A stretch of DNA of 64,000 bases from the NCBI RefSeq assembly GCF_001577265.1, contig NZ_CP014517.1, positions 1,355,001-1,419,000 on the forward strand, written 5' to 3'. Below the pieces are notes generated by a model. That model was not told where the DNA came from. It did not search any database and worked only from the letters and a program-made list of their open reading frames with translations. The translations under genes and the position numbers were made by a program. The DNA is from Variovorax sp. PAMC 28711. Its GTDB lineage: Bacteria; Pseudomonadota; Gammaproteobacteria; Burkholderiales; Burkholderiaceae_C. Below are positions 2,286 through 10,060 of the stretch, piece after piece. Position 1 is the first letter of the stretch, and each line of letters opens with the position of its first letter.

Positions 2286-3698
2286 ATGCACATTCATATC
2301 CTCGGCATCTGCGGCACATTCATGGGCGGTGTCGCCGCCCTCGCCCGCGCAGCCGGCCACCGCGTGACCGGCTGCGACGCCGGCGTCTATCCGCCGATGA
2401 GCGATCAGCTGCGCGCACTCGACATCAAACTGATCGAAGGCTTTTCGGCCGACCAGCTCGCCCTGAAGCCGGACATGTTCGTGGTCGGCAACGTGGTGTC
2501 ACGCGCCCGCCTCGCGGACGGCACGCCCAAGTTTCCGCTGATGGAAGCCATCCTCGATGCGGGTGCGCCCTACACCAGCGGGCCGCAGTGGCTGGCAGAA
2601 CATGTCCTGCAAGGTCGCCATGTGCTGGCGGTCGCGGGCACGCACGGCAAGACCACGACCACGTCGATGCTCGCGTGGATCCTGGAAATGGCGGGCAAGG
2701 CGCCTGGCTTCCTGGTCGGCGGCGTGCCGCTGGACTTCGGCGTGTCGGCCCGGCCCGGCGGCGGCTCAGCGCCGTTCGTGATCGAAGCCGATGAGTACGA
2801 CACCGCCTTCTTCGACAAGCGCAGCAAGTTCGTCCACTACCGGCCTCGCACCGCGGTGCTGAACAACCTCGAGTTCGACCACGCCGACATCTTCGACGAT
2901 CTCGCCGCCATCGAGCGGCAGTTCCATCACCTCGTGCGCACCGTGCCCGCCACCGGTCGCATCGTGGTCAATGCGACCGAGGACAGCCTGCGGCGCGTGC
3001 TGGCCCAAGGCTGCTGGAGCGAGGTCGCGCGATTCGGCGCGGGTAGCCCCGACACCGACTGGCAAGCCAAGGGTGAGCACGGCGCGTTCGACGTGCTGTA
3101 CCGTGGCGAGCGCGTCGGCCGTGTCGACTGGAAGCTCTCCGGGCTGCACAACCAGATGAATGCGCTGGCCGCCATCGCCGCAGCCGACCATGTGGGCGTG
3201 GCGCCCGCCGAGGCCGCCGCGGCGCTCGGTACCTTTCGGAATGTGCGTCGTCGCATGGAACTGCGCGGCACCGTGGCGCGCCCCGGCGGCGAGATCACCG
3301 TCTACGACGACTTCGCCCACCACCCGACGGCGATCCGCACGACGCTCGACGGCCTGCGCCGCCAGCTCGACGGCCAGGGCAAGCAAAGTGAGCGCATGCT
3401 CGCGGCCTTCGAGCCGCGCAGCAACACGATGAAGCTCGGCACGATGGCAGCGCAATTGCCGTGGAGCCTGGAGGCGGCCGACCTGGCGTTCTGCCACACC
3501 GCCGGACTCGATTGGGACGCCGCCGCCGCGTTGAAGCCCATGGGAGAGCGCGCGCAAGTCGCCGGGTCGATCGATCCGCTCGTCGCGCAGATCGTTGCAG
3601 CCGCGCGAGCCGGCGATCACATCGTCTGCATGAGCAACGGCGGTTTCGGCGGCGTGCACGACAAGCTGCTGGCGGCATTGCAGGCACAAACCCCATGA
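2286..3698 (+). CDS. mpl: UDP-N-acetylmuramate:L-alanyl-gamma-D-glutamyl-meso-diaminopimelate ligase
   Basis: Mpl re-attaches the recycled murein tripeptide to UDP-MurNAc, which short-circuits MurC, MurD and MurE. The 470 residues begin MHIHILGICGTFMGG, the Mpl form of the Mur ligase N-domain. The ATP loop [10 protein letters not shown] is at residues 118-127, followed by EADEYDTAFFDKRSKF, a signature that separates Mpl from MurC. The length matches the family (about 455-470). Its stop overlaps the start of the cupin gene by 4 nt. Recycling sits here close to rodA and mtgA and about 18 kb from the de novo mur genes. Confidence 0.95.
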   Translation: MHIHILGICGTFMGGVAALARAAGHRVTGCDAGVYPPMSDQLRALDIKLIEGFSADQLALKPDMFVVGNVVSRARLADGTPKFPLMEAILDAGAPYTSGPQWLAEHVLQGRHVLAVAGTHGKTTTTSMLAWILEMAGKAPGFLVGGVPLDFGVSARPGGGSAPFVIEADEYDTAFFDKRSKFVHYRPRTAVLNNLEFDHADIFDDLAAIERQFHHLVRTVPATGRIVVNATEDSLRRVLAQGCWSEVARFGAGSPDTDWQAKGEHGAFDVLYRGERVGRVDWKLSGLHNQMNALAAIAAADHVGVAPAEAAAALGTFRNVRRRMELRGTVARPGGEITVYDDFAHHPTAIRTTLDGLRRQLDGQGKQSERMLAAFEPRSNTMKLGTMAAQLPWSLEAADLAFCHTAGLDWDAAAALKPMGERAQVAGSIDPLVAQIVAAARAGDHIVCMSNGGFGGVHDKLLAALQAQTP

Positions 3699-4204
3699 AT
3701 TCGACGCGAGCGCACCAGCTGATCGATACGCTCCAGCTCAAGCCGCACCCGGAAGGCGGCTGGTACAGCGAAGTATTCCGCTCGACCGCCAGCGTTTCGC
3801 CGGCCGACGGCAGGTCACTGCGCAGCGCGCTCACATCGATCTATTTCCTTCTCGAGGCGCAGCAGCACTCGCGCTGGCATCGTGTTCTGTCCGACGAGGT
3901 CTGGGTCCATCTGGAAGGCGTGCCGCTGGCGCTGTGGACCTGCGACGCGGGCCTCCGAACTGCGCCGGCCCATGTGCGGCTCGGCCCTGTCGACGTGCAC
4001 GGCACGCGCCCGCAACACGTGGTGCCGGCCGGTCAGTGGCAGGCGGCGCGGCCGATCGTGAGCCACACCGCCGGCGACTTCACGCTCGCCGCCTGCATGG
4101 TCGGTCCGGGCTTCGACTTCAGCGATTTCTCGTTGATGCCCGGCGCCAGCGACGAAGCGGCTGCCATGCGTCACCACTGGCCCGATCTCGCCGTTTTGAT
4201 GTGA
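3695..4204 (+). CDS. Cupin_5 (DUF985) family protein
   Basis: This 169-residue cytoplasmic protein has the Cupin_5/DUF985 layout. LKPHPEGGWYSEVFRS near the N-terminus matches the family's signature, followed by TSIYFLLEAQQHSRWHRVLSDEVWVHLEG, where His and Glu positions of a cupin barrel are expected. Members related to yeast YML079w have an epimerase-like fold but no settled function. I used the ATG at 3695, which overlaps the mpl stop (ATGA) and gives the canonical start; a longer reading would run through mpl. It converges on aroG with an 8-nt gap and no clear terminator. Confidence 0.87.
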   Translation: MNSTRAHQLIDTLQLKPHPEGGWYSEVFRSTASVSPADGRSLRSALTSIYFLLEAQQHSRWHRVLSDEVWVHLEGVPLALWTCDAGLRTAPAHVRLGPVDVHGTRPQHVVPAGQWQAARPIVSHTAGDFTLAACMVGPGFDFSDFSLMPGASDEAAAMRHHWPDLAVLM

Positions 4205-4211
4205 TAGGCGC

Positions 4212-5330
4212 TTAACCCCGGCGCTGCTTCACGGCGTGCGACAGCGTGTCGAGCATGGCGACCGAGTCGTCCCAGCCGATGCAGGCGTCGGTGATGCTCT
4301 TGCCGTATTCCAGATCGGCGATCAGCTCCTTGCCTGGCGTGAATTTCTGCGCGCCGGCCTGCAAATGGCTTTCCACCATCACACCGAACACGCTTGTGCT
4401 GCCGCCCGCGATCTGTCCGGCGATGTCCTTCGCCACGTCGATCTGCTTTTGGTGCTGCTTCGCGCTGTTGGCGTGGCTGCAGTCGACCATCAGGGTCGGC
4501 GGCAACTTGGCCGAAGAGAGGTCGGCGCAGGCGGCCGCGACACTGGCCGCGTCGTAGTTCGGTGCCTTGCCGCCACGCAGGATCACGTGGCAGTCCGGGT
4601 TGCCGTTGGTCTGCACGATCGCGACCTGGCCGTTCTTATGGACCGACAGGAAGTGATGCCCGCGCGCCGCCGCCTGGATGGCGTCGGTCGCGATGCGGAT
4701 GTTGCCGTCGGTGCCGTTCTTGAAACCGATCGGCGCCGACAGGCCCGACGCCAATTCGCGATGCACCTGGCTTTCGGTGGTGCGCGCACCGATCGCGCCC
4801 CAGCTGATGAGGTCGCCGATGTACTGCGGGGAGATCACGTCGAGGAATTCGCTGCCGGCGGGCAAGCCGATCCGATTGATGTCGATCAGAAGCTGGCGCG
4901 CGATGCGCAGACCCTCGTCGATGCGGTAGCTTTCGTCGAGGTAGGGGTCGTTGATCAACCCCTTCCAGCCCACCGTGGTGCGCGGCTTCTCGAAGTAGAC
5001 GCGCATCACGATCTCGAGTGACTCGGCGTGCTTGTCGCGCAGCACCTTGAGCCGGCGCGCGTAGTCGAGTGCGGCAGCGGGGTCGTGGATCGAGCATGGG
5101 CCCATGACCACCAGCAGCCGGTCGTCCGTGCCGGCCATGATGTCGTGGATGGCACGGCGCGTGCCGGTGATCAGCGTTTCGACCGGCGTCCCGCGGATCG
5201 GGAAGAAACGGATCAGGTGTTCGGGAGGGGGCAGCACGTTGATGTCCTTGATGCGTTCGTCGTCGGTCTGGCTGGTTTTCTCGACGCTCGCATACCAGCT
5301 GTCGCTGGTGGGGGCGGTGTTCTGGCTCAT
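4212..5330 (-). CDS. aroG: 3-deoxy-7-phosphoheptulonate (DAHP) synthase, class I
   Basis: AroG condenses phosphoenolpyruvate with erythrose 4-phosphate, the entry step of the shikimate pathway and the main control point for Phe, Tyr and Trp. The 372-residue protein shows class I (AroFGH-type) motifs: LLVVMGPCSIHD with the metal-ligand Cys, KPRTTVGWKGLINDP, GSEFLDVISPQYIGDLISWGAIGARTTESQ, and MVDCSHANS. The length fits the E. coli enzymes (about 350-356) with a short extension. An apparent transcription attenuator with an aromatic leader peptide lies just upstream, so synthesis is probably controlled by aminoacyl-tRNA supply in addition to any allosteric inhibition. Which amino acid inhibits the enzyme cannot be read here. 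Confidence 0.96.
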   Translation of the reverse strand: MSQNTAPTSDSWYASVEKTSQTDDERIKDINVLPPPEHLIRFFPIRGTPVETLITGTRRAIHDIMAGTDDRLLVVMGPCSIHDPAAALDYARRLKVLRDKHAESLEIVMRVYFEKPRTTVGWKGLINDPYLDESYRIDEGLRIARQLLIDINRIGLPAGSEFLDVISPQYIGDLISWGAIGARTTESQVHRELASGLSAPIGFKNGTDGNIRIATDAIQAAARGHHFLSVHKNGQVAIVQTNGNPDCHVILRGGKAPNYDAASVAAACADLSSAKLPPTLMVDCSHANSAKQHQKQIDVAKDIAGQIAGGSTSVFGVMVESHLQAGAQKFTPGKELIADLEYGKSITDACIGWDDSVAMLDTLSHAVKQRRG

Positions 5331-5364
5331 CGTGTGACTCCTGGATCAACAATCAAAAGGGCAT

Positions 5365-5396
5365 AAAAAAACCGCCGGGGCGTGAGCGCCGGCGGT
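5365..5396 (-). terminator. Intrinsic terminator of the aroG leader (attenuator)
   Basis: Read on the minus strand, the hairpin has stem ACCGCCGG (5396-5389) pairing perfectly with CCGGCGGT (5378-5371), eight pairs, mostly G-C, around a 10-nt loop. It is followed at once by a run of seven T (5371-5365). It lies 34 nt before the aroG ATG and 22 nt after the leader-peptide stop. A strong terminator directly in front of a gene on the same strand makes sense as an attenuator. It may also end read-through from tldD. Confidence 0.9.
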
Positions 5397-5444
5397 CTGG
5401 GAGGGGTGTACGTTTGCTTTACGCGCTCGCCTCTGGGCCGCCGG
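5389..5444 (-). promoter_or_regulatory. Candidate antiterminator pairing of the aroG attenuator
   Basis: On the minus strand the segment CCGGCGG (5444-5438), inside leader-peptide codons 16-18, is exactly complementary to CCGCCGG (5395-5389), the 5' arm of the terminator. The seven G-C pairs would sequester that arm and prevent termination. A competing weak hairpin, CCGG-ACTT-CCGG, lies at the same upstream segment and could act as the 1:2 protector. This is inferred from complementarity only; no folding energies were computed. Confidence 0.65.
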
Positions 5445-5490
5445 AAGTCCGGAACCAAAAGTACGAAAAATAGAAAGCTGCGCGCAACAT
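5419..5490 (-). CDS. Aromatic leader peptide upstream of aroG (23 residues)
   Basis: A 23-codon reading frame, ATG to TAA, lies between tldD and aroG. Residues 6-13 read FYFSYFWF: four Phe, two Tyr and one Trp in eight codons. Such a run of codons for the pathway's end products, immediately before a terminator/antiterminator pair, is the hallmark of leader peptides such as TrpL and PheL. Stalling at Phe, Tyr or Trp codons would leave the antiterminator segment (codons 16-18) free and let transcription reach aroG. No Shine-Dalgarno sequence is visible before the ATG. The function as a translation sensor is inferred; the peptide itself probably has none. Confidence 0.82.
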   Translation of the reverse strand: MLRAAFYFSYFWFRTSGGPEASA

Positions 5491-5504
5491 GGGTGGCCAA
5501 TGTA
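5491..5504 (-). promoter_or_regulatory. Possible extended -10 element of the aroG leader promoter
   Basis: On the minus strand TGCTACATT offers an extended -10 (TGn then TACATT, 5504-5499, four of six matches). Only 8 nt separate it from the leader ATG at 5490, so transcription would start at or next to that ATG and the leader RNA would be leaderless, as reported for rhizobial TrpL. No convincing -35 is seen at 16-18 bp. The alternative is read-through from tldD. Confidence 0.35.
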
Positions 5505-5530
5505 GCACAGGGTTTTGCGCGCCGGGTTTT

Positions 5531-6991
5531 TCAGGCGGTGCCGCCGACCGTGAGACCGTCGATGCGCAGGGTGGGCTGGCCGACGCCGACCGGCACACTC
5601 TGGCCTTCCTTGCCGCAGGTGCCCACGCCCGAATCGAGCGCCATGTCGTCGCCGATCATGGTCACGCGCGTCAGCGCGTCCGGGCCGTTGCCCACGATCG
5701 TCGCGCCCTTGACCGGGTACTGGATCTTGCCGTTCTCGACCCAGTAGGCCTCGCTCGCCGAGAACACGAACTTGCCGCTCGTGATGTCGACCTGCCCGCC
5801 GCCGAAGTTGGTGGCGTAGAGGCCCTTCTTCATGCTCGCGACGATTTCTTCGGGGTTCTTGTCGCCGCCCAGCATGTAGGTATTGGTCATGCGTGGCATC
5901 GGCACGTGCGCGTAGCTTTCGCGGCGGCCGTTGCCGGTGGGCTTCACGCCCGTCAGGCGGGCGTTCATCGAATCCTGGATGTAACCCTTGAGGATGCCGT
6001 CCTCGATCAACACGTTGCGCTGGCTCGCGTTGCCTTCGTCATCGACGTTGAGCGACCCACGGCGGTCGGCGATGGTGCCGTCGTCGAGCACCGTGACACC
6101 CTTGGCCGCCACGCGTTCGCCGATGCGGCCCGAGAAGGCGCTCGACCCCTTGCGGTTGAAATCGCCTTCGAGACCGTGGCCGATCGCCTCGTGCAGCAGG
6201 ATGCCGGGCCAGCCCGGACCGAGCACGACCGTCATTTCGCCGGCCGGCGCAGGACGCGCTTCGAGGTTCGTCAATGCGGCCTTGACGGCCTGGTCAACGT
6301 ATTCGGCAATGTGTTCGTCGTCGAAGTAAGCCAGGCCGAAGCGTCCGCCGCCACCGCCTGAGCCGACTTCGCGACGGCCGTTCTGTTCAGCGATGACCGT
6401 GACCGACAAGCGCACCAGCGGTCGGACGTCGGCGGCCAGCGTGCCGTCGGCGCGCGCCACCAGCACCACGTCGTACTCGCTGGCCAACCCGGCCATCACC
6501 TGCGCCACGCGCGGGTCGCGCGAGCGGGCGAGCTTCTCGACCTTGCCGAGCAGCGCGACCTTGGCGGTGCTGTCGAGCGTGGAGATCGGGTCGACGCCGT
6601 TGTAGAGCGAGCGGCTGCCGGCGATCTTCTTGGTCGCCGTCTTCGCGCGCGCGGTGCGCCCGGCTGACGAAATCGACCGCACCGTCCGGGCTGCGTCGAG
6701 CAGCGAGGCTTCGGAGATATCGTCCGAATAGGCGAACGCGGTTTTTTCGCCGCTCACCGCCCGAACGCCGACGCCTTGGTCGATGCTGAAGCTGCCGGTC
6801 TTGACGATACCTTCTTCCAGGCTCCAGCCTTCGCTGCGCGTGTACTGGAAGTAGAGATCCGCATCGTCCACCCCGTAGCGGGTGATCTCGCCGAGCGCCT
6901 TCGACAGGTGCGACTCGTCGAGGCCAAACGGCGTGAGAAGCAGCGATTGCGCCGTGGCGAGGCGCTCGATGGTGGGTTCGCGAGAGATCAT
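5531..6991 (-). CDS. tldD: TldD metalloprotease
   Basis: TldD forms a heterodimeric zinc protease with TldE/PmbA that degrades unfolded peptides and matures microcins and the CcdA antitoxin. The 486-residue sequence carries the metal motif HEAIGH (His267, Glu268, His272) in LLHEAIGHGLEGD, and ends with the family tail GTCGKEGQSVPVGVGQPTLRIDGLTVGG. The length fits E. coli TldD (481). Its start is 28 nt from the rodA stop, so it may be read from the rodA side. tldE/pmbA is not in the window. Confidence 0.95.
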   Translation of the reverse strand: MISREPTIERLATAQSLLLTPFGLDESHLSKALGEITRYGVDDADLYFQYTRSEGWSLEEGIVKTGSFSIDQGVGVRAVSGEKTAFAYSDDISEASLLDAARTVRSISSAGRTARAKTATKKIAGSRSLYNGVDPISTLDSTAKVALLGKVEKLARSRDPRVAQVMAGLASEYDVVLVARADGTLAADVRPLVRLSVTVIAEQNGRREVGSGGGGGRFGLAYFDDEHIAEYVDQAVKAALTNLEARPAPAGEMTVVLGPGWPGILLHEAIGHGLEGDFNRKGSSAFSGRIGERVAAKGVTVLDDGTIADRRGSLNVDDEGNASQRNVLIEDGILKGYIQDSMNARLTGVKPTGNGRRESYAHVPMPRMTNTYMLGGDKNPEEIVASMKKGLYATNFGGGQVDITSGKFVFSASEAYWVENGKIQYPVKGATIVGNGPDALTRVTMIGDDMALDSGVGTCGKEGQSVPVGVGQPTLRIDGLTVGGTA

Positions 6992-7019
6992 CGAGCCATT
7001 CTAGGGAGCGGCCGCGAAT

Positions 7020-8174
7020 TCAGCTCTGCATCAATCTTTTGGCCCTGGAAATCGACATCAAAATCCCGAGCCCCAGCCCGAGCGTGACCATGGCGGTGCC
7101 GCCGTAGCTGATAAAGGGCAGCGGCACGCCCACCACCGGCAGGATGCCGCTCACCATGCCCATGTTGACGAAGGCGTAGGTGAAAAAGATCAGCGTGATG
7201 GCCCCGGCGAGCAGCCGCGAGAACAGCGTCGGCGCATCGGAAGCGATCGCGAGGCCACGAAAAATCAGAAAGATGAAGGACGCGATCAGGAAAAGGTTGC
7301 CAGCCAGGCCGAACTCTTCCGAATAGGCCGCGAAGATGAAGTCTGTCGTGCGCTCGGGAATGAACTCCAGGTGCGTCTGCGTCCCCTGCATGAAGCCCTT
7401 GCCGCCGACGCCGCCCGAGCCAATGGCGATCATCCCCTGGATGATGTGGAAGCCCTTGCCGAGCGGATCCTTGCTCGGGTCGAGCAACGTGCAGACGCGC
7501 TGCTTCTGGTACTCATGCAGGATGCGCCAATCGAAGCCATCGGCACACAGCGTCGATTCGTAGCCCACGATGAGTGCCACTGCGACCAGTCCGATGAGCA
7601 CGGGCGGCACGATGAGCTTCCAGGAGAGGCCGGCGAAAAAGATCACCGAGAGCCCCGCCGACAGCACCAGCAGCGCGGTACCAAGGTCGGGTTGTTTCAT
7701 GATGAGCCCGACGGGCACCACCAGCAGGATGGTCGCCACCGCGAAGTCGAGCGGCCGCAGCTGCCCTTCTCGCCGCTGGAACCACCAGGCGAGCATCAAC
7801 GGCATCGCGATCTTGAGAATTTCGCTGGGCTGGATCACGAACCCGACGTTGAGCCAGCGCTTTGCGCCCTTTTTCGTCAGCCCGAAGATCGCCACCGCGA
7901 TCAGCAACGCCACACCCACGGTGTAGAGCGGCACCGCAAAACTCATGAGCCGCTGCGGCGGGATCTGCGCCACCACGAACATGATGAAGCCGGCCAGCAG
8001 CATGTTGCGGCCGTGGTCCATGAAGCGGGAGCCGTGGTCGTAGCCCGACGAATACATCGTGAGCAGGCCCGCGCAGACGAGCAGGAACACCGCAAAGGCC
8101 AGGAAGCCGTCGAAGCCCTGGAACACGGGCGCAATGCGTCGCGCGAACGAGGGCTGGTTGAACACGGCTGACAT
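7020..8174 (-). CDS. rodA: Rod-shape peptidoglycan polymerase RodA (SEDS family)
   Basis: RodA is the SEDS glycosyltransferase of the elongasome and works with PBP2 and MreBCD in lateral-wall growth. The 384-residue protein is polytopic (about ten membrane segments). It has SEDS motifs such as KKGAKRWLNVGFVIQPSEILKIAMPLMLAWWF, KQPDLGTALLVLSAG, ERTTDFIFAAYSEEFGLAG and PFISYGGTAMVTLGLGLGILMS. It is distinct from FtsW encoded at 29568-30866. mrdA (PBP2) would usually lie just upstream, but here the upstream neighbour is a two-component system. Confidence 0.95.
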   Translation of the reverse strand: MSAVFNQPSFARRIAPVFQGFDGFLAFAVFLLVCAGLLTMYSSGYDHGSRFMDHGRNMLLAGFIMFVVAQIPPQRLMSFAVPLYTVGVALLIAVAIFGLTKKGAKRWLNVGFVIQPSEILKIAMPLMLAWWFQRREGQLRPLDFAVATILLVVPVGLIMKQPDLGTALLVLSAGLSVIFFAGLSWKLIVPPVLIGLVAVALIVGYESTLCADGFDWRILHEYQKQRVCTLLDPSKDPLGKGFHIIQGMIAIGSGGVGGKGFMQGTQTHLEFIPERTTDFIFAAYSEEFGLAGNLFLIASFIFLIFRGLAIASDAPTLFSRLLAGAITLIFFTYAFVNMGMVSGILPVVGVPLPFISYGGTAMVTLGLGLGILMSISRAKRLMQS

Positions 8175-8203
8175 GGGGCGGGATTATCCGCGCCCTCGCG
8201 ATC

Positions 8204-10060
8204 TCACAGCCCGAACTCGACCATTGCGACCGTCCGGCCTGGCCGGCTTTGCATGCGCAGCCGCGCGCCAATCGCCCGCGCGCGCTCGCTGAGCGCGCGC
8301 GGCGCCAAGCGCTCGGCGTCGAATCCCCGTCCGTTGTCGATCACACACAGGCGCAGCACAAGCCCGTGCTTCGCCGCTTCAATGCGCAGCACGCTGGCCT
8401 GGGCATGTTGCAGCACATTGGAAATCGCCTCAAACAGCAGGAACTGCAATTGCCGCATCGCCGCACCGTCGAGGTTGGCGACGGGGGCCAGCTCGTCGAC
8501 GGCCCATTCGAGCGAAAGGCCGGCGGCCGCGAAGCGCGGCGTCATTCGGTAGCGCAGCCCGGCAAGCAGCGCGCCGACGTCTCCGGGCGGCAGGTGAATC
8601 GAATCGATCGAGAGCTTGAGCTGGTCGAGCGAATCGCGCAGTGTGCGCAGCACCTCGGCATCGCTGCCCTGGCCGGATTGCAGTTGGCGGATGGCGGCGC
8701 TGATGTGCGAACCGACCCCGTCGTGCATGTCGCGCAGGATGCGCTCGCGCTCCTGCGTTCGCGCCTGTTCGCGTGCGCCCTGTTCGAGGCGCTCGTAAAC
8801 GAGGGCCAGCTCGTGCTCGCGGTCGGCGACCCGCGAGGCGAGCGTCTGCAGCAGGTCGCGCGCTTTGGCGCTCGCCTCGCGAAAACGGCTGATGACCAGT
8901 CCGAGCAGCGCCAAGCCGAAGAGCGTCGACGTGTAGCGCACCCACGTCGTGCTGCCGTAGGCATCCGACAGCCGGATCACCGCCCAGTCGCGACCAGCCG
9001 CAGCCACGGTGAGCACCGCCACCAGCGCGACCAGCACGCGCGGCAAGCTGGGCCGCCGAACGGTCGCCGCGACGAAGAACGACACGTACGCCACCACCGC
9101 GACGACCTCGATCGCAAGCCAGATCGTGAGCCAGTCCGGGCGCGCGCGCGAAAGCGCGAAGTAACAGACGACCACGGGAATCGTGAACACCCCGAGTGCG
9201 GCGCGCTCGAGCCAGCGCATGCCGGGTCGTCCGTGCCACCCCGCCAGGTGCTGGCAGAACATGACCACCGCGCCGGCCCAGCCGGAATAGCAGGCGGTCA
9301 TGAGGGTTCCCCATTCGACCCACGGCAGCGGCGGGTTCCTGATCGCGCCATCGGCCACGCGCATCGCCCAGCAGAACTCCGCGATCGCCGCCCACAGATA
9401 GAGATGCTCGCGGCGCGGCCGGGCCGGCACGCTGGCATCGACCTGCGTGAGCCAGAGCGCGAACGCGGTCACCCCCACGAAGAGGCTGAAGGCCGTCAGC
9501 AACACCGATCCCGTAAAGCGCCACGCGTAGGCCGATTCGTAGAGCCGGTGACGCACCAACGTCGCAGGACCGACCGTGACCGTCGACAAACCGGCACGGC
9601 GGCCGCTGTCCGCGCGCAGGTCGATCTGCAGCGTGTTGAGGCCCGGCTTCAGCAGGTCTTTTGGCAGCGGCACGTAGATCGGCGCCTTGCCATAGTCGGC
9701 GCCGCCCTCTGTCGAAAGGTCGCCGAACACCTGAAGCAGGCTGCCGTTCAGGCTGACCTCGAAGGCGCTGCCGGCACGCGGGATGAACAGGCCCCAAGGC
9801 GCCGAAGGCGGCTGACTCAGCACGAAAGGCAGCTCGAAGTGCGCTGTGCCGGGACGGCCTGCATGCTGGCGATCCCAGTGATAGGGCAGCTGCAGCGACG
9901 CGCCGCGAGTGACGCCATCCACGCGCGTGGTCACGGTAGCGGCATGCAAGGCCATGGCTTCGGGTTCGCTGGCGGCCAGCGCCCCCTGCGCCGCAAGCAG
10001 CAGCAGTGCCGCCGCACACAGGCGGCCCAGCGCGCGACGAAGTTCGTGCCTGCGCATCAC
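8204..10060 (-). CDS. Membrane sensor histidine kinase, 7TMR-DISM/NarX-DesK type
   Basis: This 618-residue sensor kinase has a signal peptide (about 1-29), a periplasmic jelly-roll-like sensor (about 30-175) and seven predicted membrane helices (about 180-395), the 7TMR-DISM architecture. A short coiled coil follows, then a HisKA_3 domain with the phosphoacceptor in ILRDMHDGVGSH (His446). The HATPase domain has an N box (Asn548, EAISNVLQHA) and a G1 box (DNGRGFD, from Asp575). The ligand is unknown; DISM sensors are thought to bind carbohydrates or other small molecules. It lies 12 nt downstream of its likely response regulator. Confidence 0.9.
   Translation of the reverse strand: MMRRHELRRALGRLCAAALLLLAAQGALAASEPEAMALHAATVTTRVDGVTRGASLQLPYHWDRQHAGRPGTAHFELPFVLSQPPSAPWGLFIPRAGSAFEVSLNGSLLQVFGDLSTEGGADYGKAPIYVPLPKDLLKPGLNTLQIDLRADSGRRAGLSTVTVGPATLVRHRLYESAYAWRFTGSVLLTAFSLFVGVTAFALWLTQVDASVPARPRREHLYLWAAIAEFCWAMRVADGAIRNPPLPWVEWGTLMTACYSGWAGAVVMFCQHLAGWHGRPGMRWLERAALGVFTIPVVVCYFALSRARPDWLTIWLAIEVVAVVAYVSFFVAATVRRPSLPRVLVALVAVLTVAAAGRDWAVIRLSDAYGSTTWVRYTSTLFGLALLGLVISRFREASAKARDLLQTLASRVADREHELALVYERLEQGAREQARTQERERILRDMHDGVGSHISAAIRQLQSGQGSDAEVLRTLRDSLDQLKLSIDSIHLPPGDVGALLAGLRYRMTPRFAAAGLSLEWAVDELAPVANLDGAAMRQLQFLLFEAISNVLQHAQASVLRIEAAKHGLVLRLCVIDNGRGFDAERLAPRALSERARAIGARLRMQSRPGRTVAMVEFGL

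Follow-up and report, generated by a model that had tools for sequence, protein, structure and literature searches.

Two attenuators of Escherichia coli, pheL-pheA and trpL-trpE, control branch-specific enzymes, sense one amino acid each and start translation at a Shine-Dalgarno site, and another E. coli leader, ilvL of ilvGMEDA, is multivalent, i.e. it carries codons for several end products. The same bacterium possesses three separately controlled isozymes of DAHP synthase, an enzyme for which aroAI-alpha is one of the gene names in use. A short leader in front of a DAHP synthase gene is known from Corynebacterium glutamicum: in the aroR-aroF system, reported alongside the E. coli attenuators pheL-pheA and trpL-trpE (PMC11802643), a Phe-Tyr-Phe leader precedes the DAHP synthase gene, and stalling raises transcription (PMC11802643, PMC7356990, PMC4046766). 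In Sinorhizobium meliloti the rnTrpL transcript is leaderless, its first bases being the ATG of the leader ORF (PMC7298713). Moreover, putative attenuators from Merino's web database have been reported before tyrA-containing operons, including Vibrio operons starting with aroAI-alpha and one operon of Bordetella parapertussis, in passages that do not use the term “leader peptide” (PMC1173090).

We analysed a window of 64,000 nucleotides (the whole stretch of DNA under study) from Variovorax sp. PAMC 28711, in which a short ORF rich in aromatic codons lies upstream of a DAHP synthase gene, referred to below as aroG. The element follows the classic attenuation logic of E. coli in what is apparently a widespread and unnamed version, and it stands out by its start, predicted to be leaderless, and by the unusual mixture of codons in its run. 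Like pheL and trpL, it combines leader codons with an intrinsic terminator and with 2:3 and 3:4 pairings that exclude each other, but it has no Shine-Dalgarno site and its codons are mixed, whereas those leaders have such a site, respond to one amino acid and precede branch-specific targets. It resembles aroR-aroF in the short aromatic leader, the DAHP synthase gene and (a prediction in our case) stalling that raises transcription. The aroR system differs in its actinobacterial host and in its answer to Phe and not to Tyr, and Trp goes unmentioned in the passages on it, whereas the leaders described here contain up to eight mixed aromatic codons, usually with Trp among them. A leaderless start, which is predicted here, is described for rnTrpL/trpL of S. 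meliloti, a system that differs in concerning Trp, trpE(G) and an alphaproteobacterium, and the presence of codons for several end products is shared with ilvL, where these are the branched-chain amino acids. Searches of an open-access library yielded no description of this aroG element; an earlier prediction for the family may exist.

Locus and leader ORF

In the window, the minus strand carries tldD followed by a leader ORF, an intrinsic terminator (5396-5365) and the DAHP synthase gene (Table 1). The first-pass annotation had placed a 23-codon leader with the residues FYFSYFWF between tldD and aroG, leaving its strand unstated; the ORF is present, 40 bases beyond the tldD stop codon, and seven of the eight codons at residues 6-13 are aromatic. 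The other features that it had listed were likewise found: the terminator stem of eight perfect pairs, the run of seven T (the first of which doubles as the last base of the stem) and, within the leader, a CCGGCGG word exactly complementary to CCGCCGG (5395-5389) of the terminator 5' arm.

Table 1. Features of the aroG leader region, in window coordinates
Feature	Position	Strand	Basis
tldD, upstream gene on the same strand	5531..6991	-	NCBIfam
Extended -10 element TGCTACATT (predicted), with its end 8 bases upstream of the leader ATG	5499..5507	-	sequence and relatives
Leader ORF, 23 codons and stop, MLRAAFYFSYFWFRTSGGPEASA	5490..5419	-	sequence and relatives
Aromatic run, codons 6-13, FYFSYFWF (4 Phe, 2 Tyr, 1 Trp)	5452..5475	-	ORF translation and stall profile
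Possible protector hairpin 1:2, CCGG-ACTT-CCGG	5441..5452	-	folds of the window only
Region 2 (CCGGCGG) within the leader ORF, antiterminator strand with the sequence of the terminator 3' arm	5438..5444	-	sequence, folds
Region 3 (ACCGCCGG), 5' arm of the terminator and alternative pairing partner for region 2	5389..5396	-	sequence, folds
Region 4, terminator 3' arm CCGGCGGT	5371..5378	-	sequence, folds
Terminator T run, 7 T	5365..5371	-	sequence
aroG, class I DAHP synthase (AroFGH type), predicted target gene	4212..5330	-	ORF and NCBIfam

Both flanking genes scored above their NCBIfam cut-offs, the DAHP synthase with model TIGR00034 (aroFGH). Since the latter protein passes the subfamily model called Trp-sensitive AroH (score 511.2, cut-off 463) and fails the AroG equivalog model (546.5 against 568), its isozyme name and feedback type are unsettled and “aroG” is used as a label of convenience. 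The only other PF00793 match of the genome, considered as a second DAHP synthase, proved to be KdsA, and neither a class II enzyme nor a second class I enzyme was found in the genome. The product of aroG is therefore the sole DAHP synthase found there.

Database searches did not recognise the element. The leader peptides of the window and four relatives had no match in Pfam, and their sole match in NCBIfam was at chance level in one relative (E = 0.18, far below the cut-off). Rfam, including Phe_leader (RF01859) and Trp_leader (RF00513), gave no match to the window element with E up to 10, and none above the cut-off in window positions 3000-8500 or at 12 further loci, the best of which (L186) scored 26 against the Phe_leader cut-off of 55. 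A consensus scan listed neither a terminator nor a promoter at this site, because its loop limit is 8 bases (the loop here has 10) and its promoter rule requires a good -35 hexamer. The folding energy of the 139-nt leader, modest evidence when taken alone, has z = -2.04, a value that three of 200 shuffles matched.

Conservation in relatives

The comparison covered 190 upstream regions (L003-L192, of which L083 is the window itself): 80 named loci, 30 loci from a further search, and 80 more among the matches listed there, which together make up a subset of those matches; strand signs and family labels outside the 80 named loci were entered manually. A locus was counted when at least five aromatics fell within eight codons of a leader and a terminator followed, its loop being allowed up to 10 bases at first and later up to 25. 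Leader and terminator occur together at 106 of the 190 DAHP synthase loci examined and at 69 of the 80 named loci, themselves the best of 592 confirmed, and the element is present in 13 of the 28 sampled families of the order. The 106 leaders encode 102 distinct peptides, some of the rows coming from close relatives. The first-pass annotation had named a lack of the aromatic codons or of the second pairing in related genomes as a refutation; most relatives within the family retain both.

Short ORFs with at least five aromatics in eight codons were found on the sense strand of 111 of the 190 upstream regions and on the opposite strand of four. A common word of at least 6 bases, placed after the aromatic run in the leader and repeated in the terminator 3' arm, is present at 86 of the 106 loci, against 9.7 expected from dinucleotide shuffles and 35.4 from synonymous recoding; for words of at least 7 bases the count is 53, against 2.0 and 14.6, respectively. 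At 20 of the 106 loci the common word has just 5 bases, and six leaders are devoid of GGCGG. In view of the excess of sense over opposite-strand runs and of the word-sharing controls, we have rejected a chance ORF.

These controls also bear on the explanation, to which we give almost no credence, that the hairpin is a plain terminator of the tldD unit and the upstream ORF an accident. In the window the element does lie directly after tldD, at the 40-base distance given above, but the aromatic run and the common word are conserved far above controls, and the element stands before aroG even where tldD is distant or its motif was not found. The C-terminal motif of TldD precedes 57 of the 69 named loci bearing the element, at gaps of 23 to 1661 bases, and the remaining 12 show no such motif within the sequence read, which was short in some cases. 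As far as these loci show, tldD is dispensable for the element, and we have rejected this explanation because of the conserved leader and the independence of the element from the proximity of tldD.

The leader sequences indicate what is being conserved. In the 100 leaders scored for frame and codons (the six without GGCGG were dropped), this core occurs in all three reading frames (61, 5 and 34 cases), which shows that it is kept as RNA and not as peptide. Phe, Tyr and Trp interchange among relatives, and the C-terminal part of the leader shifts with the reading frame (PGG, SGG, PLAE). In three loci (L065, L072 and L063) histidine codons are mixed into the aromatic run (e.g. RYHFWHFH in L065). 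A peptide that itself acts, either through nascent-chain arrest in response to a free amino acid, as in TnaC, or in trans, is very improbable in our view. The leader is strongly conserved in residue class, and a role in trans has been described for peTrpL of Sinorhizobium (PMC7298713), but the F/Y/W swaps and the changing C-terminal part fit the sensing of codons better than a single arrest sequence.

The pairing of leader and terminator was further examined at the base preceding GGCGG, scored at 99 of the 106 loci. The combination in leader and terminator arm is C-G-C in 53 and T-A-T in 14 of the 99, with misfits A-G-C in 16 and C-A-T in five; the base is paired in 74 of 99 loci against 65.8 after shuffling, and none of 2000 shuffles reached 74. 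Other offsets around GGCGG exhibit little or no covariation. Where CCGCCGG..CCGGCGG in the terminator is replaced by CCGCCAG..CTGGCGG, the word in the leader mostly switches along with it. Covariation of the two hairpins, anticipated in the first-pass annotation, is thus present and in the right direction but comprises few independent events: since only two arm switches can be placed on the AroG protein tree (84 of 86 rows), and the sign test is not significant, we regard it as support and not as proof. Consensus folding of an alignment of 34 sequences detected the terminator and not the antiterminator; as MAFFT shifts the core word by one base in rows with another frame, the pairs were counted by script on anchored words.

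Eleven of the 80 named loci did not qualify: L021, L025, L065, L066, L072, four of Polynucleobacter and two Cupriavidus copies. The contig of L021 ends, and L065, L066 and L072 have only four aromatics in eight codons. By eye, L066 looks a true variant; the bases flanking its core are atypical in leader and terminator alike (GGGGCGG and CCGCCCC). In L025 (2340-2520, a Ramlibacter MAG) the leader and region 2 are present without a terminator hairpin, which reflects either a true deletion or an assembly collapse. The two Cupriavidus copies have no leader, and the four Polynucleobacter loci (L074, L075, L077, L081) have neither leader nor terminator; about 30 bases separate tldD from aroG in L075. 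The element is nevertheless present in L052 and L062, two MAGs with Polynucleobacter in their titles.

A covariance model (R1), built from 34 of 61 diverse sequences picked, matches 146 of the 150 family genomes searched and 137 of the 141 genera among them, once per genome apart from two in which a weaker match accompanies the first. In the genome of the window the one further match (E = 7.5) is unconvincing as a second copy. Across the class, R1, which is tuned to the family, matches six of 274 genomes, three of them outside the family. One of these (G509, locus L231) has the full set before a DAHP synthase, of the CTGGCGG type, and in the other two (G357, G587) the script found no aromatic leader with an ATG start. 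Outside the family, where its distribution is patchy, an element of the CCGGCGG type also accompanies aroG in a record of Solimonas sp. SE-A11 (L032). The occurrences in L032 and G509 may result from transfer, shared ancestry or, for L032, contamination.

In another genome of the family (G227, locus L225, 260-420) the aroG model matched a leucine counterpart situated before leuA (2-isopropylmalate synthase). Its leader is MNFNFSSTLLLLLPANGQQFFCI, a promoter-like TGTGCTATATT stretch adjoins its ATG, and an arm of its terminator CCCGTTG...CAACGGG recurs in the leader. This locus suggests that leaderless attenuators may be a common design in the family.

Predicted start and switching of the leader

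The position of the predicted promoter sets the element apart from ordinary translation starts. A TAnnnT hexamer, mostly TACATT, lies 6-9 bases before the leader ATG at 87 of the 106 loci, and TG precedes it in 79 of these 87; 18 of the 19 loci without the hexamer belong to other families. The -10 hexamer test is positive for 68 of 69 named loci at the leader ATG, but for just one of the 92 aroG starts and for 45 of the 1027 remaining ATGs scored, and the pattern TGTGNTANANTN{5,9}ATG has a single match in the whole genome, at this site. Conversely, a Shine-Dalgarno-like word precedes one of the 106 leaders against 72 of the 92 aroG starts. The position of the -10 hexamer and the lack of a Shine-Dalgarno-like word predict a transcription start at the leader AUG or no more than about 2 bases away from it, and the leader ORF looks leaderless wherever the hexamer is present. 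Leaderless transcripts have been mapped in Burkholderia cenocepacia (PMC4603805).

We propose that transcription starts at or adjoining the leader AUG and that the leader would be translated without a Shine-Dalgarno site while RNA polymerase moves ahead. If charged tRNA for Phe, Tyr or Trp were scarce, the ribosome would stall within codons 6-13 with its leading edge just clear of region 2 (CCGGCGG), which could then pair with region 3 (CCGCCGG) ahead of the synthesis of region 4; the terminator would be prevented and transcription would read through into aroG. With plentiful aromatics the ribosome would cover region 2, regions 3 and 4 would form the terminator and transcription would end at 5365.

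This scheme was examined by folding the free RNA up to the terminator loop for each stall position, with the ribosome edge set 13 bases beyond the base at which the A-site codon begins. For the window sequence, a stall at any of codons 1 to 12 leaves the antiterminator as the best fold, at -22.9 kcal/mol with the ribosome at Trp codon 12; it weakens to -14.3 kcal/mol at codon 13 (the last Phe), and the pairing of region 2 is lost from codon 14 onwards. For stalls at codons 14-18 a weaker and different pairing persists, in which a later leader segment binds the terminator on its loop side. The completed terminator is more stable than the antiterminator in the window, so the switch must be kinetic, as it is in the trp attenuator.

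The same step at the end of the run is seen in the relatives. At least six pairs between leader and region 3 form at 95-98% of the 106 loci when the ribosome stalls eight to one codons before the last aromatic (101 of 106 at one codon before), at 67 (63%) when it stalls at the last aromatic and at 35 (33%) one codon past it. Further past the run the six-pair threshold is still reached at about 20-40% of loci (32-42% at two to five codons past it), and at 77 of the 106 at least one codon beyond the run reaches it; this loose threshold is weak, since shuffled segments attain it at 72.0 of 106, so the argument rests on the drop where the run ends and on the exact words, and not on the number of pairs.

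We are therefore highly confident in interpreting the element as a ribosome-mediated transcription attenuator of aroG. An aromatic-rich ORF precedes a biosynthetic gene, an intrinsic terminator lies between the two and, judging by sequence and folding, a leader strand competes for the 5' arm of that terminator, being exposed by a stall and covered otherwise. The leader, the terminator, the alternative pairing, the spacing and the conservation are read directly from the DNA, whereas the transcription start, translation, stalling, read-through and the amino acids that act are a matter of interpretation. Conservation, the word that leader and terminator have in common, and the placing of the aromatic run with respect to the fold switch strongly support the attenuator proposed in the first-pass annotation; its suggestion that all three end products are sensed is plausible but unproven.

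Amino acids that may be sensed

Phe, Tyr and Trp are all present in 78 of the 100 scored leaders, a point in favour of sensing all three, while Trp is missing from 19 and Tyr from five. Phe accounts for 441 of the 688 aromatic codons in these leaders (64%) against 526 of 1330 (40%) in AroG itself, counted over stretches from the named loci; the share of Tyr is 23% in leaders against 44% in AroG, and Trp is slightly poor (13% against 17%). This composition speaks for an attenuator that is governed by Phe alone or mainly by Phe, in which charged tRNA-Phe is what matters and the Tyr and Trp codons are passengers. The leaders that dispense with Trp point the same way, as does the C. glutamicum aroR leader (Phe-Tyr-Phe), which answers to Phe and not to Tyr (PMC11802643). 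Against this stand the 78 leaders that combine the three aromatics and the retention of Trp in 61 of 65 scored named relatives. Furthermore, Trp codons mostly sit late in the run (65 of 87 lie 15-20 bases before the core word), and a ribosome stalled on them leaves the core word exposed in 86 of 87 cases (157 of 160 for Tyr, 396 of 441 for Phe). A lone DAHP synthase also has to supply all three branches. We lean against a Phe-governed switch, while taking it as a serious contender.

The alternative is a leaderless three-in-one sensor, in which a single run of eight codons would read the charging of tRNA-Phe, tRNA-Tyr and tRNA-Trp, so that the scarcest aromatic would set the level of the sole DAHP synthase; Trp would be placed nearest the fold switch, and the arrangement would span nearly the whole family and some lineages beyond. 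We put this proposal forward tentatively, as one that falls just short of an even chance; the 19 leaders without Trp, the enrichment in Phe and the Phe-only answer of aroR count against it. By eye, the presence of Trp in the leader showed no relation to the DAHP synthase count.

To conclude, the aroG enzyme is very probably turned up when aromatic amino acids run short, as far as can be judged from the arrangement of the locus. The element predicts control of entry into aromatic synthesis across a large family (146 of the 150 genomes searched). As a compact, apparently leaderless attenuator, it would be one in which translation and transcription start together, and its mixed leader offers a natural test of whether such a sequence integrates three signals or obeys one.
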